Shown: positions 6,560 to 42,030 of the stretch, piece by piece
Position numbering within the stretch: the stretch's first letter is position 1
Layout: the number at the start of each line of letters is the position of its first letter
DNA from: Clostridia bacterium
GTDB taxonomy: Bacteria; Bacillota; Clostridia; Oscillospirales; QAKW01
DNA length: 64,000 nt
NCBI GenBank assembly: GCA_017464525.1
Contig: JAFTZM010000021.1
Coordinates: forward strand, 1-64,000
Reading direction: 5' to 3'
Notes under the pieces: generated by a model
Seen by the model: the letters and a program-made list of their open reading frames with translations, nothing else
Told to the model about the DNA's origin: nothing
The model's database searches: none
Program-made: the position numbers and the translations under genes

Positions 6560-6768
6560 TAAAAGCACCCTCAGACCAAACAGGGACGGATCAGATCCGC
6601 GGTACCACCCTGATTGCACCGAAAGTGCCACTCATTCTTAAGCCGTTAACGCCGACCAAACGGTTTTGCTCGAAAAAACAGCCGCCGCTGACCCTTCTGC
6701 AAAAGGCTCTCACCAATGCCTTTCTCTCTGTACGCAGCCGAAAAAGCGGGATTTTTCGTCATCGCCAT
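6560..6768 (-). promoter_or_regulatory. T-box riboswitch of alaS (alanine)
   Basis: On the minus strand the leader holds the conserved T-box AGGGTGGTACCGCG (6598-6611), upstream AGAGAGAAAGGC...TGGTGAGAGCC typical of stem I, and a downstream CCCT/AGGG hairpin followed by GCTTTTATATTTTT. A GCT triplet at 6680-6682 is my candidate specifier codon for alanine, though a GCG/GCN just beside it is also possible. Binding of uncharged tRNA-Ala would stabilise the anti-terminator formed between the T-box and the following CGTCCCT. Confidence 0.9.
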
Positions 6769-6776
6769 ACTCTTTT

Positions 6777-23974: not shown

Positions 23975-24028
23975 GCCTCCTTAATATAATATTGGGTTTT
24001 ATCCCCAATTAAAATATAATAAGGAGGC
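23975..24028 (-). promoter_or_regulatory. Long inverted repeat masking the ribosome binding site
   Basis: GCCTCCTTA (23975-23983) and TAAGGAGGC (24020-24028) form the outer arms, with further ATTGGG/CCCAAT pairing inside. On the minus strand the 3' arm contains the AAGGAGG site of the metalloprotease pseudogene, 8 nt before its ATG. If transcribed, the hairpin would hide that site. Whether it is a regulator, part of a small repeat, or both is not decidable here. Confidence 0.6.
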
Positions 24029-24151
24029 TTGAAAAAGTCAATATCTATCTATTTTTTGCAAAGTAAATTAATATCTCGTCAGTAATTTAGATATTATTAA
24101 CAAAAATTCAACTATTCTCGCGGGGTACACATTTTTTGACAGTCTCTCGCT

Positions 24152-25183
24152 TTATAAGCGGTCGGCGATCTCGTATACCAACTGCTCTGTTTTTTCCCAG
24201 CCGAGGCAGGGATCGGTAATGGATTTCCCGTAGCAGAAGGCATCGCCGATCTTCTGAGTACCATCCTCGATATAGCTTTCGATCATCAGGCCCTTCACCA
24301 GCTTGCGGATATCTCCGTTCTGCCGGCAGCTATACAAGATATCCCGGGCGATCCGGATCTGCTGCTCATACTGCTTACCGGAATTGGCATGGTTGGTATC
24401 CACGATAACAGCCGGATTTGCAAGATCGGTCTTGGCGTAGGTCTCGCAAAGCTTGACCAGATCCTCATAATGGTAATTGGGCAAAGAACGGCCGCTGCTG
24501 TCCACATACCCCCGCAGGATAGCATGGGTCAGAGGATTACCGGTGCTTTCTACCTCCCAGCCCCGATAGATAAAGGTATGAGAATGCTGACCGGCGGTAA
24601 TGGAATTCATCATCACCGAAAGGTCGCCGCCGGTGGGGTTCTTCATTCCCACTGGAATATCCAAGCCGCTGGCAGTGAGACGGTGCTGCTGGTTTTCCAC
24701 CGAACGTGCCCCGATGGCCACATAAGAAAGAAGATCGGAAAGATAACGGTAGTTTTCGGGATAAAGCATTTCATCCGCACAGCTGAACTGATAATCCGCC
24801 AAAGCACACATATGCACATCACGGATGGCCAGGATCCCCTTCAGCATATCCGGCTTTTCATTAGGATCGGGCTGATGCAGCATCCCCTTATACCCATCCC
24901 CGGTAGTACGAGGCTTATTGGTATAGATGCGGGGAACGATCATGATCTTATCCTTCACCTGATCCTCCAGCCTGCGGAGGCGGCCGATATAATCCAGCAC
25001 CGATTCTTTAAAATCCGCAGAGCAGGGGCCGATGATCAGGGCAAAACGGTTGCTTTCCCCGGTAAAGATCTTTTTAAGCTCTTCGTCTCTTTTGGCTTTG
25101 ATCTGCAGCATCGCCTCGGTGGCAGAATATTGCTCCTTGATCAGCTGCGGGATAGGCAATTTTCGTTTAAAATTCATATTCAT
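24152..25183 (-). CDS. aroF: 3-deoxy-7-phosphoheptulonate synthase (class I, AroG/AroF type)
   Basis: The 343-residue protein is a class I alpha DAHP synthase: IIGPCSADFKESVLDYI, MIVPRIYTNKPRTTGDGYKGMLHQPD, GARSVENQQHRLTASGLDIPVGMKNPT and IVDTNHANSGKQYEQQ. It condenses PEP and erythrose 4-phosphate, the first step of aromatic synthesis. It is the last gene of the aromatic operon, 17 bp after tyrA. Which aromatic acid inhibits it cannot be told by eye. No clear terminator was recognised after it; the 185 bp up to the pseudogene hold nothing else I can name apart from the inverted repeat at 23975-24028. Confidence 0.94.
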   Translation of the reverse strand: MNMNFKRKLPIPQLIKEQYSATEAMLQIKAKRDEELKKIFTGESNRFALIIGPCSADFKESVLDYIGRLRRLEDQVKDKIMIVPRIYTNKPRTTGDGYKGMLHQPDPNEKPDMLKGILAIRDVHMCALADYQFSCADEMLYPENYRYLSDLLSYVAIGARSVENQQHRLTASGLDIPVGMKNPTGGDLSVMMNSITAGQHSHTFIYRGWEVESTGNPLTHAILRGYVDSSGRSLPNYHYEDLVKLCETYAKTDLANPAVIVDTNHANSGKQYEQQIRIARDILYSCRQNGDIRKLVKGLMIESYIEDGTQKIGDAFCYGKSITDPCLGWEKTEQLVYEIADRL

Positions 25184-25200
25184 AAAGCAAAGCCCCTTTC

Positions 25201-26061
25201 TTATTTATCAAAAAGCTTACGGCGCTCTGTGGAAAGCCGCATCATGGCCCGCATATCATCCAGATTATCATTTACAAGATCGTTCCGAAGCTCCTGAAAT
25301 TTTTCCATAAACAGATCCATCTGGGCCAATAATTGGTCTTTATTCATCATAAAAAGCTCGCTCCACATGGCATCGTTGATCTTGGCGATTCGGGTCAGAT
25401 CCCGGAAGGAATCGCCGGTATACTTCACCAGATGCTCATTATCATGGCAGCACATTAACGTAACGGCAATGCAATGGGTCAGCTGAGAAAGATAGGCGAT
25501 CATTTCATCATGCTTTTCGGGGCTCAGGCAGGAAACGGAACGAAATCCCAGTTCCCGGCCCAGCTCCTCACACAATGCGATGGCTTCGGGCGTATTTTTA
25601 TCGGTGGGGACCACGATATAATTGGCGCCGGCGAAGATGCGGTCATCGCTGTTTTCCACCCCGTAGACCTCCTTACCGGCCATGGGATGGGCAGCAATAA
25701 ATTCCACATCCTCCCGCAACATCTCCTGGATCTCATAGACCACGCTGCCCTTTACGCCGGTCACATCTGTCAGCACAGTACTGGGCTTGAAAAGATGCTG
25801 ATTTTCCTTGATCCAGTTCATAAATACATGGGGATACAAGGCAAATACGATCAGCTCCGCCCGTTGGATCATCTCCGCATCCACCTGAATAGATCCGGCG
25901 TCGATGAGATGATGCTCCAGGGCATAATCAATGGTGGATTGGGAGCGGGTGATGGCCTCCACATGGTAGCCCTTCTTTTTCAGGGCCATGGCATAGCTGC
26001 CGCCCAGCAGACCCAGCCCCACGATCAGAATATTGGTATTGGCATTTTTATTCAGTTTCAT
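25201..26061 (-). CDS. tyrA: Prephenate dehydrogenase
   Basis: The 286-residue protein has the N-terminal NAD-binding GLGLLGGSYAMALKKKGY, AITRSQSTID, then VTGVKGSV and AAHPMAGKEVYGVENS, the TyrA-type active-site region, and a helical C-terminal domain. It converts prephenate to 4-hydroxyphenylpyruvate on the way to tyrosine. It lacks a C-terminal ACT domain, so feedback control in the protein is not evident. It overlaps aroA by 14 bp and has GAGGT upstream of the ATG. Confidence 0.93.
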   Translation of the reverse strand: MKLNKNANTNILIVGLGLLGGSYAMALKKKGYHVEAITRSQSTIDYALEHHLIDAGSIQVDAEMIQRAELIVFALYPHVFMNWIKENQHLFKPSTVLTDVTGVKGSVVYEIQEMLREDVEFIAAHPMAGKEVYGVENSDDRIFAGANYIVVPTDKNTPEAIALCEELGRELGFRSVSCLSPEKHDEMIAYLSQLTHCIAVTLMCCHDNEHLVKYTGDSFRDLTRIAKINDAMWSELFMMNKDQLLAQMDLFMEKFQELRNDLVNDNLDDMRAMMRLSTERRKLFDK

Positions 26062-27256
26062 ATTTTATGACCTCGATTCCCAAAGAAGATAGTTTTTCAA
26101 AAAAGTCCGGCATACTCTTGGTGACCGCCTGAGCGCCCCGGATACTGCCGCCGGTACAGGTGCAGAGAACTGCCATAGCCATCACGATACGGTGATCGTT
26201 GTGACCGTCCAGCACCATGCCCGGTGCTCTCAGCTGACCGCCGGGAACGATAATACGGTTCTCCTCCAAAATTACATCGACCCCGCATTTTTTCAATTCT
26301 TCAGCCATAGCGGCGCCGCGGTCGCTCTCCTTGATCTTCAGGCGGGCCGTATCGGTAAACACACCGCCCTTCAAGGCAGCAGAAACCGCAAACAGAATGG
26401 GGCCCAGATCCGGGCAATTAGCCAAAGAAAGCGAGGGGGTACCGGCTGCAAGCCGGGCAAAATAATCCCGATATACACGGTCTCCCTGCAGGGAGTTTTC
26501 CTTCAGCCCGGTCACAGTAACATTGCCGCCGAAAAGATTGAGGGCATCCAAGAAAGCGGCATTGGAATAATCCCCCTCCACCGCACATTCCCGGCCAACG
26601 CCGGAGCCGCCGATCAGTTCCAGGCGGGTCTCCCCTGCCCAGCTTACCTGAAAACCGAATTCCTGCAACGCCGAGAGGGTCAGATCGATATAAGAGCGGC
26701 TCTCCACTTTTCCGGTCAACTGAATGGAGCTTTTTCCGTTTAAGGTCAGCAATGCAAAAATCAAGCCAGTGATAAATTGGCTGCTCACGCTGCCGTCCAC
26801 GGAATATTCCCCGTTTTGCAGCTTGCCGCAAACAGTGACCTGATTCCCGGCCTGAGAAAAGAAAAATCCTTTTTCAGCCGCCAATTGCCGATAGACAGTC
26901 AAAGGACGCTCCATCAGGCGGTCACTCCCCCGGAGAACGGATGTCACACCGGAAAGCAGGCAAAGAGGAAGCATAAAGCGCAAAGTGCTCCCGCTTTCCC
27001 GGCAAGGAAGCGTCTCAACGGCCTTCAATTCAGCGCCGCCCCAGACAGTCACCGCATCGTTACAGGCAGTGATTTCAACGCCTAATGCGCGCAGGCAATC
27101 GATGGTGGCAAGAATATCCTGGGAATACTCGATCCCCCGCACGATACTTTTACCCTTTGCCAAAGCCGCTGCGATCAGGTAACGGTGGGCCATACTTTTG
27201 GAGGGAGGAGCCTGAACCGTTCCTCCCGCAAGACCGGGCTTGATTTCAACCTTCAT
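26048..27256 (-). CDS. aroA: 3-phosphoshikimate 1-carboxyvinyltransferase (EPSP synthase)
   Basis: The 402-residue protein has PPSKSMAHRYLIAAALAKG near the N-terminus, LPCRESGSTLRFMLPL, the VDGSVSSQFITGL substrate loop, EGDYSNAAFLDAL and KESDR near the C-terminus. It joins PEP to shikimate 3-phosphate. The start at 27256 (MKVEIKPG) matches the family; a longer frame reaching 27337 overlaps aroQ and looks unrelated. It overlaps aroQ by 11 bp. It is slightly shorter than the roughly 427 residues of E. coli AroA. Confidence 0.94.
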   Translation of the reverse strand: MKVEIKPGLAGGTVQAPPSKSMAHRYLIAAALAKGKSIVRGIEYSQDILATIDCLRALGVEITACNDAVTVWGGAELKAVETLPCRESGSTLRFMLPLCLLSGVTSVLRGSDRLMERPLTVYRQLAAEKGFFFSQAGNQVTVCGKLQNGEYSVDGSVSSQFITGLIFALLTLNGKSSIQLTGKVESRSYIDLTLSALQEFGFQVSWAGETRLELIGGSGVGRECAVEGDYSNAAFLDALNLFGGNVTVTGLKENSLQGDRVYRDYFARLAAGTPSLSLANCPDLGPILFAVSAALKGGVFTDTARLKIKESDRGAAMAEELKKCGVDVILEENRIIVPGGQLRAPGMVLDGHNDHRIVMAMAVLCTCTGGSIRGAQAVTKSMPDFFEKLSSLGIEVIKYETE

Positions 27257-27683
27257 GAGATGCCTCCAGCAAAAAATCAATGGCTTCAAGGTAACCGTCG
27301 GTTCCATGGCCGGTGATGGTCTTGGCACAGGCGGCACGAATATAACTGATCTGGCGGAACTCCTCCCGCTTGCTCACATCGGAGATATGCACCTCCACCA
27401 TGGGCAAAGAAACTGCCTTAGCGGCATCCAGAATGGCAATGCTGGTATGGGTATAGGCGCCGGGATTGATGACGATCCCATCCATTCTGCCGTAGGCTCC
27501 CTGGATGGCATCTACCAAACCGCCCTCATGGTTGGATTGAAAAAATTCCACCTCAACGCCCTTGGCGCCGCAATAGGCTTTGATCTTTTTCAAAAGAGTA
27601 TCATAGGTCTCGGCGCCGTAGATACCGGGCTCACGAATGCCCAGCATATTCAGGTTGGGGCCGTTAATCACAAGAATTTTCAT
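27246..27683 (-). CDS. aroQ: 3-dehydroquinate dehydratase, type II
   Basis: The 145-residue protein begins ILVINGPNLNMLGIREPGIYG with the active-site Tyr, and continues QSNHEGGLVDAIQGA, INPGAYTHTSIAILDA and VEVHISDVSKREEFRQISY, all standard for type II dehydroquinase. It converts 3-dehydroquinate to 3-dehydroshikimate. It overlaps the end of aroE-aroK by 20 bp. Confidence 0.96.
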   Translation of the reverse strand: MKILVINGPNLNMLGIREPGIYGAETYDTLLKKIKAYCGAKGVEVEFFQSNHEGGLVDAIQGAYGRMDGIVINPGAYTHTSIAILDAAKAVSLPMVEVHISDVSKREEFRQISYIRAACAKTITGHGTDGYLEAIDFLLEASHEG

Positions 27684-28917
27684 GCTTTATATCCTCAAGA
27701 ATCTCATTGCATACAGCAGAAATATCCGATGCAGGAGAAATAATATGATCCGCTGTTTCACAGTAGCGGGAATACCGCTCCCGGTAGCGCTTTTCCAACG
27801 CCTCACGGCTGCTGGAGAGAGGGCGGTCGTCGGTGGGCAGGATCTCCTCCAGGGGACGGTCCAGAAAGATCACACGGCCGTTCCGCTTCAGGTTCTTCAC
27901 ATTTTGATCCCGCAGGATCGCACCGCCGCCGGTGGCGATCACACAGCCGGTCAAAGGCGCTGCCTGCTCATCGATCACCGCACCTTCCAGATCCCGGAAG
28001 GCCTGCTCCCCGTCCCGGGGAATGATCTCCGCAGGGGAAGCGCCTGCCCGTTCGGTCAGCAGTACATCGGTATCCAGAAAGCTCCGTCCCAAAGCCTCTG
28101 CCACCTTTTGGCCGATCGTCGTTTTTCCGGAGCCGGGCATTCCGGTCAGCACAATATTCTGCTTGGAAGAAAAGATCTCCCGGAATACCTCTTCGATCTT
28201 TTCGACAGAGATCTTGGTGTCCAGGAAGTATTCCACCGCATAGGCGGCCTGCGCCACCAGCATATAAAGACCGCAGACTGCAGGAATTCCCCGTTCCCTT
28301 GCCCGGAGCACCAGCTCAGTACGCAAAGGATTGTAAACAACATCTACCACACCCTTCAGGTTGGTATAGCTATCCAGATCCATCGCCACAGTATGAATAT
28401 TAGGATACATCCCGCAAGGGGTGGTATTAATAATAAAATCCGCATCGCATTGTGTGGTCTTTGCCTGCTCATAGGTGATACCGCTCAGCCCGGACCGAGA
28501 GGCCACAATGATCTCTGCAGCACCCAGATCGGCCGCTACCGCCTGCGCGGTGCGGGAGGTACCGCCACGGCCGAAGATGACCACCTTACGGCCTTTCAGA
28601 TCCATTCCGGCACGGAGGATCAGGGCACGCATCCCGAAAAAGTCGGTATTATAGCCGTAAAGCTTTCCATTGCGGTTCACAATGGTGTTCACCGCACCGA
28701 TGGCCTTGGCCTGGGGGCTGATCTCGCTGAGATAAGGGATGACATCTTGTTTATAGGGAATGGTCACATTGATAGCAGAGAATTCCCGGGCCTCCATAAA
28801 GGGCCCCAGCTCCTCTCGGGAAAGCTCCTTCAGCTCATAGGTATAATCCGCCAAGCGGTTATGGATCTCCTTTGAAAAGCTATGGCCTAATTTTTCGCCG
28901 ATACAACCGTATTTCAT
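27664..28917 (-). CDS. aroE: AroE-AroK fusion: shikimate dehydrogenase plus shikimate kinase
   Basis: The 417-residue protein carries two consecutive pathway enzymes. Residues about 1-245 are shikimate dehydrogenase (IGEKLGHSFSKEIHN, INVTIPYKQDVIPYL, GYNTDFFGM, NADP-binding FGRGGTSRTAQA). Residues about 253-417 are shikimate kinase (TGMPGSGKTTIGQKVAEALG as Walker A, FLDTDVLL, ATGGGAILRDQN, and RPLSSSREALEKRY lid). The frame is continuous. The fusion would hand shikimate directly from reduction to phosphorylation. It begins with an ATGA overlap with aroC. Confidence 0.95.
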   Translation of the reverse strand: MKYGCIGEKLGHSFSKEIHNRLADYTYELKELSREELGPFMEAREFSAINVTIPYKQDVIPYLSEISPQAKAIGAVNTIVNRNGKLYGYNTDFFGMRALILRAGMDLKGRKVVIFGRGGTSRTAQAVAADLGAAEIIVASRSGLSGITYEQAKTTQCDADFIINTTPCGMYPNIHTVAMDLDSYTNLKGVVDVVYNPLRTELVLRARERGIPAVCGLYMLVAQAAYAVEYFLDTKISVEKIEEVFREIFSSKQNIVLTGMPGSGKTTIGQKVAEALGRSFLDTDVLLTERAGASPAEIIPRDGEQAFRDLEGAVIDEQAAPLTGCVIATGGGAILRDQNVKNLKRNGRVIFLDRPLEEILPTDDRPLSSSREALEKRYRERYSRYCETADHIISPASDISAVCNEILEDIKHENSCD

Positions 28918-30011
28918 TCTTCTCCTCCTAAATAATCCGTACCAAATCTGCCGGTGAGCAGATCTGCCACTACCATGGCGCAGATGCTATCCACCACCAC
29001 CCGGGCCCGATGGACGATGCAGGGATCATGCCGGCCGGCGATCTGAAGGGTAGTTTCTTCCTTTTTGATAAAATCAATGGTCTCCTGCTCCTGATAGATG
29101 GAGGGAGTGGGCTTGATCACCGTGCGGATCAGGAGGGGCATCCCGTTGGTAATGCCGCCGTTGATGCCGCCGTTGCTGTTTTTAGCGGTAACAGCCTGTC
29201 CGTTTTCATAGCGGAAGGGATCGTTGGCGACACTCCCCCGCTGATCAGCGAGTGCAAAGCCATCCCCGAAGGAGACCCCTTTCACCGCCGGGATGCTAAA
29301 CAAGCCGTGGGAAAGCAGCCCCTCCACCGTATCAAACCAGGGCTCTCCCAGCCCGGCAGGCAGGCCGGTGATCACCGTTTCCAGAATACCGCCGACACTA
29401 TCTCCCTCGGCGGCAGCCGCTTCAATGACTGCTTTCATATCCGCAGCCGATCGAGCGGAAAGAACCGGAAAGTCCTGCTGATTCAACTGATCGATATCTG
29501 CCTGAAGAACCTCAAAGCCCCGGTCGTCGATCCCGGCGCAGCGGCTCATATGGGTGGCGATACGGATCCCTTTTTTCTCCAAAGCCGGGATTAATAAACC
29601 GCCGGCCGCAACCAATCCCGCCGTTATACGGCCGCTAAAATGGCCGCCGCCACGGTAATCCTCATAGCCATGGTATTTGCAATAAGCGGTATAATCCGCA
29701 TGACCGGGACGGGCTTTACTGCGGGTGGCAGAATAATCCTTGGAATGCTGGGCTGTATTGGGGATAACGATGCAGACCGGGGTTCCGGTCGTATAACCAT
29801 TGAAAACACCGCTCTCAATGGTATATTCATCTTGCTCCCGGCGGGCAGTAGAGATCTTCCCTGCCGGGCGGCGCTTGGATAACTGACCGCGGATAAAGGC
29901 TTCATCCACCTTGATCCCGGGGGCAAGCCCATCCATCACCACGCCGATCCCATTCCCATGGCTCTCGCCGAAAATGGTGACGGTTATCTGATTACCGAAT
30001 GAATTCTTCAT
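28914..30011 (-). CDS. aroC: Chorismate synthase
   Basis: The 365-residue protein has FGESHGNGIGVVMDGLAPG at the N-terminus, RPAGKISTARREQDEYTIESGVFNG, RPGHADYTAYCKYHGYEDYRGGGHFSGR, and SNGGINGGITNGMPL, the characteristic chorismate synthase motifs. It uses reduced FMN to make chorismate from EPSP. Its ATG overlaps the aroB stop by one base, and its end overlaps aroE by four. Confidence 0.96.
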   Translation of the reverse strand: MKNSFGNQITVTIFGESHGNGIGVVMDGLAPGIKVDEAFIRGQLSKRRPAGKISTARREQDEYTIESGVFNGYTTGTPVCIVIPNTAQHSKDYSATRSKARPGHADYTAYCKYHGYEDYRGGGHFSGRITAGLVAAGGLLIPALEKKGIRIATHMSRCAGIDDRGFEVLQADIDQLNQQDFPVLSARSAADMKAVIEAAAAEGDSVGGILETVITGLPAGLGEPWFDTVEGLLSHGLFSIPAVKGVSFGDGFALADQRGSVANDPFRYENGQAVTAKNSNGGINGGITNGMPLLIRTVIKPTPSIYQEQETIDFIKKEETTLQIAGRHDPCIVHRARVVVDSICAMVVADLLTGRFGTDYLGGEE

Positions 30012-31018
30012 TATAATACCTCTTCCATACGGGCATTAAGAGCCTCAAGAGAAATTTTATCCAATGTAAATTGACCGATCTCGGGTAAGGACACCACGGT
30101 GATCTCGCCGCCGGAAACCTTTTTATCCATGGCCATGGCGGCAATGACCTTTTCACGGTCGTAGGTATAGGAAGTGGGAAGGCCCACCTTCTCTAAAACC
30201 CTGCGCAGCCGCTCCCGGGGAGCAGGCGCGGCCATGATCAGCATCCCCAGCGCAACACACTCGCCGTGATACAATTCTGCAAGGCCGGAGACTGTTTCGA
30301 TGGCATGGCCGGCGGTATGGCCGAAATTCAGCACACGGCGCAAGCCGGTCTCCTTGGTGTCCTGCTCCACAACGCTCTTTTTGATGCGCAAGGAGCCTTC
30401 GATGATCCGATCCAGATTTTGCAAGGGCTCTTCCTGTTCCAGAAACGCAAAGAGCTCCGCATCGTTGGTAGCTGCCATCTTGATGGATTCCGCAAGACCG
30501 TTGGCGATCTGCCGGGCAGGCAGCGTATTCAGAACTTCCGGATCGATCAGCACTGCTTTGGGCTGGTAAAAAGCACCCACAATATTCTTATAGCCCTTGA
30601 AATCGATGGCCACCTTCCCGCCGATGGAGGAATCCACCTGAGAAAGGAGGGTGGTGGGGACATTATAGAAATCAATGCCTCGCATATAGGAGGCTGCAGC
30701 AAAGCCGGCCATATCGCCGGTCACACCGCCGCCCACCGCCACCACACAATCGGTACGGGAAAAGCCTTCCTGCACCAGGCGTGAAAGGATATTCTGGTAG
30801 GTTTCCATATTTTTTTGCTGTTCCCCCTGGGGAAAGACCTCAATAAAGGGGGTCTTGCATAGGGAGGCAACGGTTTCGGCATATTGGGCAGGAACGCCGC
30901 TATCGGTTACGATGAGAACTTTACGATCCAATTTAAAAAAACGATCGGCCCTGGCAAGGGCGCCCCGTTCCAGAAGGATGTCATAGCTATCCGGCCCCAA
31001 ATTCATTGAAATGATCAT
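30011..31018 (-). CDS. aroB: 3-dehydroquinate synthase
   Basis: The 335-residue protein has VAVGGGVTGDMAGFAAASYMRGIDF, VPTTLLSQVDSSIGGKVAIDF, and NFGHTAGHAIE with the metal-binding histidines of dehydroquinate synthase. It cyclises DAHP using NAD and zinc. The start at 31018 (MIISMNLG) was chosen for the CTGGAG site; it lies 1 bp after the pheA stop, so the two are probably coupled. Confidence 0.95.
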   Translation of the reverse strand: MIISMNLGPDSYDILLERGALARADRFFKLDRKVLIVTDSGVPAQYAETVASLCKTPFIEVFPQGEQQKNMETYQNILSRLVQEGFSRTDCVVAVGGGVTGDMAGFAAASYMRGIDFYNVPTTLLSQVDSSIGGKVAIDFKGYKNIVGAFYQPKAVLIDPEVLNTLPARQIANGLAESIKMAATNDAELFAFLEQEEPLQNLDRIIEGSLRIKKSVVEQDTKETGLRRVLNFGHTAGHAIETVSGLAELYHGECVALGMLIMAAPAPRERLRRVLEKVGLPTSYTYDREKVIAAMAMDKKVSGGEITVVSLPEIGQFTLDKISLEALNARMEEVL

Positions 31019-31019
31019 G

Positions 31020-32114
31020 TTATCGCTCCAGTTTTTGTTCTTTTTCAAATGCACCTACAACCTTCAGGTTGCTGCAATGCTTTTTCAGCTCTGCCAACAT
31101 TTTTTCGCCCTGTTCTCCGCTGATATTTCCTTCCCCTTCGGCAAAGAAATAATACTCCCAGATCAGATCCTTACTGGGGCGGCTTTTCAGGGCCCGCAGG
31201 TTAAAGCCCGCATCCCCGATGGCGGAGATGGCCTTTCCCAGGCCGCCGGCTTCATTTTTAACGGTGAAATTCATCACAAAATAATTATCACGCTGGGGAT
31301 TGCGGTTGGCAAAACGGGAGAACACCGCAAACCGGGTGGTATTGATGCTGCTGGCATTGATGCTCTTATCCAGCACCTTCAGACCATACAATTCAGCCGT
31401 TTCAGCGCTGGCAATGGCGGCCAGCTCCTTGCGCCCTTCCTCGGCCACCTTTTTAGCGGCAACCGCCGTATTGGAGGATTCATGGATGATAAAATCGTGA
31501 TCCCGGATATAATCGGCGCATTGCCCCAGCGCTTGGGGATGGCTGATCACCTCTTTGACCTCATGGACCTTGGCCCCTTCGATCCCCACCAGATTCTGCA
31601 CGATCTCCATATCATAAATACCGTTGATATAGAGGGAGCCAAAAAAGGCCAGATCCATTACCTGGGAAACATCACCCTGGTAGCTGTTCTCAATGGGCAG
31701 AACAGCACAGTCACATTCCCCGTTGACCACCGCTTCATAAGCGGCCTTAAAATCCTTATAAGGAACAGAAGAACCGTCCGGAAAGATCTTTTTGGCGGCG
31801 ATATCCGCAAAGGCACCGGGAACGCCGCTGTAGGCCACCAGCATTCCTTCCAGAATACGGTGCTGATAGCTGCGGGAGAGGCTCATATTGTATTTCAGGA
31901 AGTTTACATAATATGATTTTAATGCTTCATCCTGCATATACTGAGCATTTTTACGGATGACTTCCTCTTCCCGGGCTGTATCCAGGATGGGCAGACCGTG
32001 CTCTTTTTTATGCGCCGCTACCATCTCCACTGCTTTCATGCGGGCGGCAAAGAGATTGGCCATTTGCTGGTCGATCTCGTTGATCATCTTTCTTGCTTCG
32101 TCTAATTTACTCAT
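31020..32114 (-). CDS. pheA: Bifunctional chorismate mutase / prephenate dehydratase
   Basis: The 364-residue protein has an N-terminal AroQ-class chorismate mutase domain (about 1-85: INEIDQQMANLFAARMKAVEMVAAHKK split over two helices). A central prephenate dehydratase domain follows (YSGVPGAFADIAA, CAVLPIENSYQGDV, TTRFAVFSR) and a C-terminal ACT domain (about 275-355: FTVKNEAGGLGKAISAIGD, then ALKSRPSKDLIWEYYFF) that normally mediates phenylalanine inhibition. It takes chorismate to phenylpyruvate. Start overlaps the aminotransferase stop (ATGA). Confidence 0.95.
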   Translation of the reverse strand: MSKLDEARKMINEIDQQMANLFAARMKAVEMVAAHKKEHGLPILDTAREEEVIRKNAQYMQDEALKSYYVNFLKYNMSLSRSYQHRILEGMLVAYSGVPGAFADIAAKKIFPDGSSVPYKDFKAAYEAVVNGECDCAVLPIENSYQGDVSQVMDLAFFGSLYINGIYDMEIVQNLVGIEGAKVHEVKEVISHPQALGQCADYIRDHDFIIHESSNTAVAAKKVAEEGRKELAAIASAETAELYGLKVLDKSINASSINTTRFAVFSRFANRNPQRDNYFVMNFTVKNEAGGLGKAISAIGDAGFNLRALKSRPSKDLIWEYYFFAEGEGNISGEQGEKMLAELKKHCSNLKVVGAFEKEQKLER

Positions 32115-33301
32115 TTTTGATAATCCTCATAAAGTTTTTCAAAGGCAGGGATCGCACGCTCGATCTGTTCCGTGGTTACACAATAGGCGATCCGAACATA
32201 GCCGGGGCACCCGAAGGAATCGCTGGGAACCAGAAGCAGCTCGTGCTCCTTGCCTCTTTCGTAAAAGGCGTTGGCATCCGGTTCCAGCGCCTTCATAAAG
32301 AGATAGAAAGCACCGTCGGGAGGGATCACTTCATAACCGATCCGGGTCAGTTCACGAAGAAGCAGTTCCCGATTTTTACGGTAGATGCTGAAATCAGAGG
32401 TGGCATCCACACATTCAGCAACGGTAAACTGCAGCAGGCTGGGGGCACATACAAAGCCCAGCGCTCGGCCGGCGCCACAGATAGCTGCATAGACATCACC
32501 GGCATTCTTCATGGTGGGAGAAACTAAAATATAACCGATCCGTTCACCGGGCAGAGAAACCGCCTTACTGAAGGAATAGCAGACCAGAGAATCCGCATAG
32601 TAGTTGGGCACATAGGGTACCTCTTCCCCGTTCCACACCAGCTTGCGGTAGGGTTCGTCGGCGATCAGGTAGATCACATGGCCATATTCCTTTTCTTTAG
32701 CAGAGAGCAATTCACTCAGGCGGATCAGATCCTCCTTGGGAATAATGACACCGGTGGGGTTATTGGGGGAATTGATGATCAAGGCCTTGGTGTTCTCGTT
32801 GATACTCTTTTCGATGGCACCAAGATCCAGCTGGAAATTATCGGTTCTGCTGGGAACCGGAACCAGCTTTGCCCCGGCGTGCTCCGCAAAGACACGGTAT
32901 TCCGGGAAAAAGGGTGCGATCACGAGGACCTCATTTCCCGGCTCGGTGATGGCGGCCAGGGAGATGGTCAGGGATGCGGCGGCACCGCAGGTCATATAGA
33001 TGAGATCCCAGCGGGCACCGGCATTAAACTCACGGTTGATGGCATCTGCTATTTTCTGCCGCACAGCAGGATCGCCGGATGCGGCGGTATAGCCGTGAAG
33101 CTGCACCGGATCCCCTTCGGAAAGCAGACGGATCATGGTTTCGTTCACGATGCCGGGAGCCGGAACACTGGGATTCCCGATGCTGAAATCATAGACATTT
33201 TCTGCCCCGATCTCTGCCTTACGGCGCTTGCTATACTCAAAGATCTCACGGATCACAGAGCTCTTTTTGCCAAGGCCTAACATTTTTTCAGAAATATCCA
33301 T
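32111..33301 (-). CDS. Class I PLP-dependent aminotransferase (aromatic/aspartate type)
   Basis: The 396-residue fold-type I aminotransferase shows FSIGNPSVPAPG, the PLP-contact NSPNNPTGVI, LIADEPYR, and the lysine motif CYSFSKAVSLPGERIGY. Its position as first structural gene of a complete Phe/Tyr operon indicates that it transaminates phenylpyruvate and 4-hydroxyphenylpyruvate to the amino acids. It is likely also active on aspartate, since the AspB/AspC group is broad. A strong GGAGGATGT site precedes the ATG, which follows the attenuator terminator by about 10 bp. Confidence 0.88.
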   Translation of the reverse strand: MDISEKMLGLGKKSSVIREIFEYSKRRKAEIGAENVYDFSIGNPSVPAPGIVNETMIRLLSEGDPVQLHGYTAASGDPAVRQKIADAINREFNAGARWDLIYMTCGAAASLTISLAAITEPGNEVLVIAPFFPEYRVFAEHAGAKLVPVPSRTDNFQLDLGAIEKSINENTKALIINSPNNPTGVIIPKEDLIRLSELLSAKEKEYGHVIYLIADEPYRKLVWNGEEVPYVPNYYADSLVCYSFSKAVSLPGERIGYILVSPTMKNAGDVYAAICGAGRALGFVCAPSLLQFTVAECVDATSDFSIYRKNRELLLRELTRIGYEVIPPDGAFYLFMKALEPDANAFYERGKEHELLLVPSDSFGCPGYVRIAYCVTTEQIERAIPAFEKLYEDYQK

Positions 33302-33324
33302 TTACATCCTCCAAAATATAAAAA

Positions 33325-33363
33325 CCCGCATCCTGATGCGATCATTGCATAAGGAATTGCGGG
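33325..33363 (-). terminator. Attenuator terminator of the aromatic operon
   Basis: CCCGCA (minus strand; plus 33358-33363) pairs with TGCGGG (plus 33325-33330), with ATTCCT/AGGA and ATGC/GCAT pairing inside, and TTTTT follows on the minus strand. It lies between the leader peptide and the first structural gene, so it must be read through for operon expression. Confidence 0.88.
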
Positions 33364-33437
33364 CTTTCTGTTGCTTATTTCCATGGCGAACGCCTCAGAT
33401 GCTCAGCGCTCGCAATCAGCGGTAGACAGAAAGTCCG
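33360..33437 (-). promoter_or_regulatory. Anti-terminator pairing in the aromatic operon leader
   Basis: On the minus strand CGGACTTTCTGT (33426-33437), lying within the leader peptide codons, can pair with ACAGAAAGCCCG (33360-33371) at 11 of 12 positions. The second segment includes CCCG of the terminator 5' arm, so this pairing and the terminator are mutually exclusive. A separate hairpin (GCGAGCGCT with AGGCGTTCGC) overlaps the leader stop codon and may act as a pause structure. Confidence 0.75.
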
Positions 33438-33474
33438 TATTACAGTAGTAAAATCGATGGATCATATCAGCCAT
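33403..33474 (-). CDS. Phe/Tyr leader peptide of the aromatic operon
   Basis: A 23-codon frame starts at ATG 33474, with AAAGG 9 nt upstream, and ends with TGA at 33403-33405. The peptide begins MADMIHR, then Phe-Tyr-Tyr at codons 8-10, and has another Phe at codon 15. The run of Phe/Tyr codons sits about 12 nt before the anti-terminator strand, the distance expected if a ribosome stalled there leaves that strand free. Its place between a strong promoter and a terminator, ahead of Phe and Tyr genes, fits classical attenuation. Confidence 0.78.
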   Translation of the reverse strand: MADMIHRFYYCNTDFLSTADCER

Positions 33475-33505
33475 TTCTGCCAACCTTTCTAAAAATATTA
33501 TTGAT

Positions 33506-33535
33506 ATTATAAGCCTGGTTGCTTTGGTTTGTCAA
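33506..33535 (-). promoter_or_regulatory. Promoter of the aromatic amino acid operon
   Basis: Minus-strand TTGACA (33530-33535) and TATAAT (33506-33511), both perfect hexamers, separated by 18 bp, lie about 30 bp before the leader peptide ATG. Confidence 0.88.
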
Positions 33536-33555
33536 GGATTTTTGCAAAAAATGTA

Positions 33556-33587
33556 AAAGAAACCGTGCGTTATTGCACGGTTTCTTT
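33556..33587 (-). terminator. Terminator of the rex-adhE operon
   Basis: A 13-bp perfect stem (33556-33568 with 33575-33587) 7 bp after the phosphotransferase stop, with a T-tract on the minus strand. Confidence 0.9.
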
Positions 33588-33594
33588 CTGAAAA

Positions 33595-34347
33595 TTATTC
33601 GTAGTCTACAACATCTACCCAGGAGAGCAGGAATTGACGCTCCTCGGGCTTGCCCTTCACGGACTGGGAGGCGGCTACGATAGGAAGCCATTTCTGAACA
33701 TACTGCTTGGCGGTATCGCTCTTTTTGCAGAAGAGATCCAGATACTTCTTCGCCACATCTTCCTTCCCTTGCAGGCAGAAAAGCAGATAGGTACGGGCCA
33801 CATCGGCGGAGGCGTTACCCTGGGTGGCATGGGACCAGTCCAAGATATAGGGGGTGCCGTCTGCTTTAATAATAATATTGGAAGGATTGAAGTCCCCATG
33901 GCACACCTTGGTATGCTTTTTCATCCCCTCCAGACGGGTATGAAGCTCATAGCGGGTGGTGGCATCTAGCTCTGCTCGGGAGATCTTCATATTCATTTTA
34001 TCCTTCAGCTTGTTGAGATAAGGCGCTCTTTTTTCGTGCACGGTAAGTTGCAGATCCACAAACAGCTCCAGATATTCCTCCAGCTTATCGGGATTTTTTT
34101 CCATCAGCTGAGCAAGGGTCTCCCCTTCGATATAGTCGGAAGCGATGACCCAGCGGCCATCCTCCAGGGTGGTGACCTCTAAAACACGGGGGATATTCAA
34201 GCCAGTTTCCTCCACCCGGGCCTGGTTCAGGGCTTCATTCAAAATATCAGCCTTGGAATAGCCTGCAGCAAAGACCTTCAATGCACGATCGCCGTCGCGG
34301 TAAACGGTCTTCTGGGTTCTTTCGGCAATGATCTGATCCAATTTCAT
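33595..34347 (-). CDS. Aminoglycoside phosphotransferase-like small-molecule kinase
   Basis: The 250-residue protein has the kinase-fold motifs of the APH/choline-kinase group: a lysine in ALKVFAAGYSK, VCHGDFNPSNIII (catalytic Asp and Asn) near residue 148 and YILDWSHATQG with the metal-binding Asp. Such proteins phosphorylate hydroxyls of small molecules such as thiamine, choline, methylthioribose or sugars; the substrate here is not readable. It lies 14 bp after adhE and probably shares its operon. No resistance context is present, so I would not call it an antibiotic resistance gene. Confidence 0.75.
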   Translation of the reverse strand: MKLDQIIAERTQKTVYRDGDRALKVFAAGYSKADILNEALNQARVEETGLNIPRVLEVTTLEDGRWVIASDYIEGETLAQLMEKNPDKLEEYLELFVDLQLTVHEKRAPYLNKLKDKMNMKISRAELDATTRYELHTRLEGMKKHTKVCHGDFNPSNIIIKADGTPYILDWSHATQGNASADVARTYLLFCLQGKEDVAKKYLDLFCKKSDTAKQYVQKWLPIVAASQSVKGKPEERQFLLSWVDVVDYE

Positions 34348-41780: not shown

Positions 41781-41786
41781 ACTCTA

Positions 41787-42030
41787 AACGCAAAGAACAA
41801 GCGTCAAAGATCCCGCATACCCGCAAAAAGAGAAAAGGTGCCGGCGGCTGAAAGCACCTTGGCGAAGGAGCAGGATTTATCTTCAACTTGGGAGCGGTGC
41901 TTTTGAAGAAGCAACGGTTGCCTGCCGTTAGAAAGGCGATGAGTGCCGGGTATTCTACCCGGAATCTGGGTGGTAACACGGGCATTTTGTTCTCGTCCCT
42001 TTTGGGGCGGGGCTTTTTTATTTTTTGATC
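41787..42030 (+). promoter_or_regulatory. T-box riboswitch of pheST (phenylalanine)
   Basis: The leader holds a TTC triplet at 41882-41884, the phenylalanine specifier codon, in the context ATCTTCAACTTGGGAGC. It also holds the T-box CTGGGTGGTAACACGGGC (41966-41983) and a terminator (CTCGTCCC with GGGGCGGG, 41992-42011) followed by a T-tract. Uncharged tRNA-Phe should promote read-through into pheS. This is a second and different phenylalanine-responsive device in the window, besides the attenuator at 33.4 kb. Confidence 0.92.

Follow-up and report, generated by a model that had tools for sequence, protein, structure and literature searches.

A conserved leader with phenylalanine and tyrosine codons and the anatomy of a transcription attenuator precedes an aromatic amino acid operon in Clostridia

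A Clostridia bacterium of the order Oscillospirales carries a short leader upstream of an operon for aromatic amino acid synthesis. The locus lies in a 64,000-nucleotide stretch of contig JAFTZM010000021.1, which was analysed as a whole and which we call the window. Is this leader an attenuator in which a translating ribosome senses both phenylalanine and tyrosine, as was originally predicted from the sequence alone? The leader is followed by nine co-directional genes, whose neighbours overlap or sit a few tens of bases apart. Pfam assignments identify every shikimate step and both the Phe and Tyr branches, confirming the predicted gene content:

32111 to 33301, minus strand: PLP-dependent aminotransferase (PRK06836 family), operon gene 1
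31020 to 32114, minus strand: pheA, chorismate mutase-prephenate dehydratase-ACT (Pfam)
30011 to 31054, minus strand: aroB, 3-dehydroquinate synthase (Pfam)
28914 to 30011, minus strand: aroC, chorismate synthase (Pfam)
27664 to 28917, minus strand: aroE-aroK fusion, shikimate dehydrogenase and shikimate kinase (Pfam)
27246 to 27683, minus strand: aroQ, type II dehydroquinase (Pfam)
26048 to 27262, minus strand: aroA, EPSP synthase, start codon approximate (Pfam)
25201 to 26061, minus strand: tyrA, prephenate dehydrogenase (Pfam)
24152 to 25183, minus strand: aroF, DAHP synthase (type I), final operon gene (Pfam)

The upstream gene ends in its own terminator (33588-33555), and the leader is therefore assigned to the downstream operon. 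Its parts are as follows:

33506 to 33535, minus strand: sigma-70 type promoter, TTGACA-18-TATAAT, matching the consensus at 12 of 12 positions
33474 to 33485, minus strand: arm 1, the leader ribosome-site and start-codon region GGTTGGCAGAAA, able to pair with arm 2
33403 to 33474, minus strand: leader ORF of 23 codons, predicted translation MADMIHRFYYCNTDFLSTADCER followed by a stop codon
33453 to 33445, minus strand: control codons Phe8-Tyr9-Tyr10, inside the leader ORF
33426 to 33437, minus strand: arm 2, CGGACTTTCTGT, the 5′ arm of the antiterminator, within the leader ORF, based on pairing with arm 3 at 11 of 12 positions and on covariation
33386 to 33413, minus strand: hairpin GCGAGCGCT/GGCGTTCGC across the leader stop codon, between arms 2 and 3
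33358 to 33371, minus strand: arm 3, ACAGAAAGCCCGCA, common to the antiterminator and the terminator
33320 to 33368, minus strand: intrinsic terminator of arm 3 and arm 4, 11 bp, then a T-rich tail, between the leader ORF and the first gene

The promoter is the sole 12-of-12 match in the 9.7-kb operon region (24000-33700), and transcription is expected to start near 33499. Relatives' leaders have a comparable TTGACA/TATAAT arrangement upstream. The promoter, the ORF, the Phe-Tyr-Tyr codons and a further Phe at codon 15 are all in the sequence as originally described. So is the antiterminator, in which 33437-33426 (CGGACTTTCTGT) faces 33371-33360 (ACAGAAAGCCCG) with 11 of 12 pairs and a single A x C mismatch. 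The terminator placed at 33325-33363 is also present, although its stem is slightly longer (33368-33320). The hairpin at the stop codon has counterparts in three relatives (G002, G003 and G052).

Taken by itself, the window locus has modest significance. The leader folds far better than its shuffled versions (z about -3.2 to -3.8), and a short ORF with a mixed Phe/Tyr run of at least three residues arises in 5.8% of dinucleotide shuffles. The latter frequency would leave room for a constitutive terminator preceded by a chance ORF, with no sensing of amino acids. We therefore turn to the relatives, where the comparative evidence bears on this explanation.

The start set comprised loci of the same aminotransferase in 59 relatives, where seven further leaders were recognized by eye. 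A MAFFT alignment running from promoter to terminator (A1) misaligned the terminator arm, so the covariance models were restricted to the region of the helix between arms 2 and 3 (2:3, the antiterminator; 1:2 and 3:4 are named likewise). The first such model is called R1, and the second, R2, was built from 20 sequences. Covariance-model searches in the window's family, order and class bring the total to at least 38 leaders, including that of the window. Within the window's own family, R1 (E ≤ 0.1) matched 10 of 12 genomes, and the two misses are only 62-64% complete. At E ≤ 0.001, R2 matched 28 of 394 genomes in the order and three genomes of the class beyond the order (G514, G517 and G767). 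At the same threshold, it matched 16 of 63 genomes in the family that includes G068, 4 of 22 in that of G131 and, in a phylum-wide sample, the window's genus alone. Weak matches found by R1 only (G084, G166, G246 and the first place in G176) were dropped on inspection, as there is no leader there. In the following, the tabulated set consists of 36 leaders; those of G357 and G080 were read later and are not in the table.

All inspected R2 matches (E ≤ 0.001) have a Phe/Tyr leader; downstream lies a gene of the aromatic pathway or, in one case, a transporter. The first downstream gene is the same aminotransferase, pheA or aroF, and once each a fusion of chorismate mutase to aroB (G398) and a sodium:solute symporter (G397). 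In G397 (L145), the leader motif MKNKFYYYYYYFKKGCPSYVMTKA (match at 1501-1588) precedes the symporter (SSF) gene starting at 1759. We guess that this symporter is a candidate Phe/Tyr transporter, and its uptake of aromatic amino acids could be tested. In G398 (L141), the ORF after the leader joins the chorismate mutase domain straight to aroB, without prephenate dehydratase; either a deletion truly fused the two or the assembly is at fault here. When R2 was run on 56 related aminotransferase loci from other lineages, it found only two leaders, both already known; the leader is thus often missing where the aminotransferase is present. An Rfam scan of 20 aminotransferase loci, mostly leaderless, found no T-box.

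The two alternative helices are preserved by compensatory changes. Among the 20 sequences of R2, pairing in the 2:3 helix reaches 84%, both sides have changed at 7 pairs, and 0 of 500 shuffles attained its covariation score. Sliding the partner lowers the paired fraction to 26-36%. For all 36 leaders, 2:3 is 82% paired in an alignment that was fitted to the structure and includes one antisense row, and the covariation result is unchanged. In the 15 sequences outside the R2 build, 78% of positions pair and covariation is weaker but positive (13 of 500 shuffles reach the score); it is weaker because these sequences are close to one another. The core of the 3:4 terminator is paired in 247 of 252 cells (98%) across the 36 members, with arm 4 picked for best pairing. 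Apart from three exceptions, at its variable position a C in arm 3 faces a G in arm 4, and a U in arm 3 faces A or G. In G010, one step is altered jointly in arms 2, 3 and 4 (CAGAC / CCTG / CAGG). Members with GCCC or GCTC in arm 3 have the same A x C mismatch in 2:3 as the window, and members of the GTCC type pair there. This covariation backs the reading that the antiterminator would exclude the terminator.

The original prediction had staked itself on conservation in relatives, and the FYY core, 2:3 and 3:4 are indeed kept. With at least 38 homologous leaders that have a Phe/Tyr run, a kept geometry and covarying alternative helices, the comparative data in practice refute the chance ORF, to which we assign next to no probability. 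The same evidence makes the attenuator anatomy secure.

A run containing both Phe and Tyr occurs directly upstream of arm 2 in all 36 tabulated leaders. It is 3-8 residues long (for example FYY, FYFYYF, YFYYF and FYYYYYYF), and the chance of such a run per locus has a median of 0 and a maximum of 4.5%. Phe and Tyr account for 34% of the leader residues in this set, and TTT/TTC and TAT/TAC swap synonymously. After the run, the peptide tracks the RNA: most of the window's genus has GAC-TTT-CTG (D-F-L), and other relatives have GAC-TGT/TGC (D-C) or GGC-TGC (G-C). In G093 (L130) and G080 (L174), the arm 2 RNA is in a different frame (RAAR versus KGCP), and the run and the arms are kept, so it is the RNA that is conserved there and not the peptide. 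These two leaders are a natural frame-shift control. One element of the original prediction is lost here. The Phe at codon 15 was considered as a sensor codon and rejected, because it sits within arm 2, most relatives have Cys there, and it belongs to a stretch whose frame differs in two leaders. Given that the peptide follows the RNA there, Phe15 is a consequence of RNA pairing.

These peptides bear on two variant mechanisms. In one, the attenuator is the same but effectively senses a single amino acid, namely Tyr alone (or Phe alone), with the other codons being incidental. The window leader, which has two Tyr to one Phe ahead of arm 2, and the leaders of genus g2, which have four or five Tyr to one Phe, could be read in this way. 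However, Phe and Tyr are both in the run of every tabulated leader, often alternating (as in FYFYYF and YFYYF), and both are products of the operon, so we consider the single-amino-acid sensor unlikely. The claim that one peptide reads two end products is thus supported by codon content. In the other variant, a specific nascent chain would stall the ribosome on free Phe or Tyr or on an inhibitor. TnaC, for example, is an arrest peptide that responds to tryptophan. Strong runs of bulky aromatic residues, and the recurrence of D/G-C after the run, might suggest such a peptide. Against this, the order and length of the run vary (3 to 8 residues), and the D/G-C is imposed by the arm 2 RNA, with G093 and G080 using another frame there. 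Residues conserved at fixed positions, as for a TnaC-like peptide, were not found in the leader set. An arrest peptide is therefore very improbable.

A T-box in the leader, or some other RNA there that binds a metabolite or a tRNA, could also control the operon, and the genome does have 12 T-box matches, one of them at pheS. However, no T-box (RF00230) or other Rfam family reaches its threshold in the leader, and the T-box covariance model has no match at 33320-33540. We regard this explanation as having a vanishingly small chance. The Rfam families for amino-acid leaders (Phe_leader, Leu_leader and others) likewise gave no match at threshold in the window leader and 14 member loci; the best sub-threshold match in the leader is to Leu_leader (E = 2.6).

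The preferred reading, which we consider very probable, is ribosome-mediated transcription attenuation of the classical kind, in which charged tRNA-Phe and tRNA-Tyr are sensed. The run ends 3-10 nucleotides before arm 2 in every member measured. We modelled folding with the RNA under the ribosome masked, assuming a ribosome reach of 12 nucleotides. With the ribosome on the first codon of the run and arm 3 just made, 2:3 forms in 36 of 36 leaders, with a mean of 9.1 pairs. With the ribosome on the last codon, 2:3 is lower yet mostly present (5.1 pairs). According to these models, the placement of the control codons should let a stalled ribosome leave arm 2 free. Without a ribosome, and before arm 3 exists, 1:2 is predicted to form. 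Across the 36 members, this pairing has 8.2 expected pairs, versus 3.3 with a dinucleotide-shuffled arm 1, although the members are related and the p value is not literal. The original prediction described a switch with two states; 2:3 versus 3:4 holds up, but the pairing of arms 1 and 2 at the leader ribosome site was overlooked. The 2:3 helix is predicted even without a ribosome in 23 of 36 members, including the window, so basal termination in these must rest on kinetics or on passage of the ribosome. With its three adjacent control codons, the window leader falls short of most relatives, which have up to eight, and its response may therefore be shallow. A possible yardstick, the trp leader of E. 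coli, was confirmed to be present in genomes.

From the parts of the leader, their conservation, covariation and geometry, and the predicted folds, we infer that the ORF is translated, that stalling, termination and its relief take place, and that both amino acids act. The proposed stalling attenuator, which these sequence features support, would work as follows. RNA polymerase would start near 33499, and a ribosome would enter the 23-codon leader. When tRNA-Phe and tRNA-Tyr are charged, the ribosome would pass the Phe-Tyr-Tyr codons and cover arm 2, leaving arm 3 free for arm 4, and transcription would end ahead of the operon. Under scarcity of Phe or Tyr, the ribosome would pause at codons 8-10, 10-16 nucleotides before arm 2. 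Arm 2 would then be free to bind arm 3 once it is made, and the polymerase would continue into all nine genes. In an untranslated leader, arm 2 would tend to pair with arm 1, the leader's own ribosome site, which should favour the terminator.

The mechanism is textbook. The window leader shares with the enterobacterial leaders of pheA, pheST and trp (pheL, pheM and trpL) a short ORF that contains control codons, an antiterminator and a terminator that exclude one another, and the position of an intrinsic terminator before a biosynthetic operon. The leader peptide pheL responds to Phe alone, and its target is pheA. By contrast with these three leaders, that of the window mixes Phe and Tyr codons, holds arm 2 inside the ORF and precedes the whole shikimate pathway and both branches. 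The E. coli thr and ilvGMEDA attenuators are multivalent, responding to Thr and Ile and to Ile, Val and Leu, respectively. They resemble the window leader in that the control codons of a single leader serve at least two end products, but these are not Phe and Tyr.

Precedents for leader-peptide attenuation exist in Bacillota. To Naville and Gautheret's knowledge, a His leader peptide in bacilli was the first beyond Proteobacteria and Actinobacteria (PMC2965389), and His attenuators were added for relatives of C. difficile and for Erysipelotrichales (PMC9413887). The Bacillota set thus spans the B. cereus group, C. difficile and its relatives, and Erysipelotrichales (PMC2965389; PMC9413887). 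These attenuators likewise use a leader peptide in place of a T-box in a T-box-rich phylum, but differ from the window leader in amino acid, operon and lineages. The S. aureus ilv operon is described with a Leu-rich attenuator peptide, and it is thus also a biosynthetic operon under leader-peptide attenuation in a Gram-positive host, although for branched-chain amino acids and in another operon (PMC5794164). A further precedent, the uORFC-13-1 motif, is a proposed Phe uORF before aroF of Acholeplasma with an adjacent terminator (PMC8632094). The available excerpt gives 24 representatives, from Acholeplasma and environmental sequences only, with ‘at least one phenylalanine’, and reports no Tyr run (PMC8632094). 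Hence the statement that Firmicutes mostly use T-boxes stands as a trend, qualified by the published leader-peptide attenuators of Bacillota (PMC2965389, PMC9413887, PMC5794164, PMC8632094). In Actinobacteria, no Phe or Tyr leader-peptide attenuator was found (PMC1262725). A comparative survey of attenuation by Lyubetsky's group appeared in 2010, as cited in PMC4833913. We found no report of a Phe and Tyr leader in clostridia in the searchable literature, which leaves most subscription papers outside (for example, that of Lyubetsky's group). The Phe/Tyr leader family is conserved, absent from Rfam and in no searchable paper that we found.

The rest of the genome is consistent with a leader for these two amino acids. 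Anthranilate synthase component I (PF04715, trpE) was not found in the window genome (G000), and the same search was positive in 14 of 14 control genomes. Among 24 leader-bearing relatives, PF04715 occurs in one and is absent from 23. These absences suggest Trp auxotrophy. At locus L035, a T-box precedes an ABC solute-binding protein whose sole NCBIfam match is TrpX, below the family cut-off. The probable picture for the window genome is that chorismate goes to Phe and Tyr and that Trp is taken up from outside, in agreement with a leader that has no Trp codons. Of the 12 T-box matches in this genome, one is directly before pheS (41784-42003; E = 6e-18, below the gathering score), in agreement with the original prediction of a T-box for Phe at pheST, and another precedes a gene read as tyrS; both gene names are our reading of the sequences. 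Phe is thus probably sensed by a T-box at pheS and by a translating ribosome at the biosynthetic operon of the same genome, and the proposed division between synthetase genes with T-boxes and a biosynthetic operon with a leader peptide appears to hold. A further T-box match lies at 6579-6771 of the window, minus strand (E = 8e-15, below the gathering score), directly upstream of an alaS-like ORF.

The leader adds a conserved family of leader-peptide attenuators, absent from Rfam, to a phylum usually described as reliant on T-boxes, and reading of both Phe and Tyr by one peptide is unusual. We tentatively propose, at somewhat less than even confidence, that lineage-restricted attenuators with two inputs (Phe or Tyr) took over control of the route from chorismate to Phe and Tyr in T-box-rich clostridia. 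They would have a third state, in which arm 2, itself leader coding sequence, closes the leader ribosome site; termination would then be the default for leaders with little or no translation. Given a T-box at pheS and a probable ribosome-based sensor at the operon, the two sensor types could be compared directly within one genome. The leader motif would also mark genes of the regulon, such as the sodium:solute symporter of G397.
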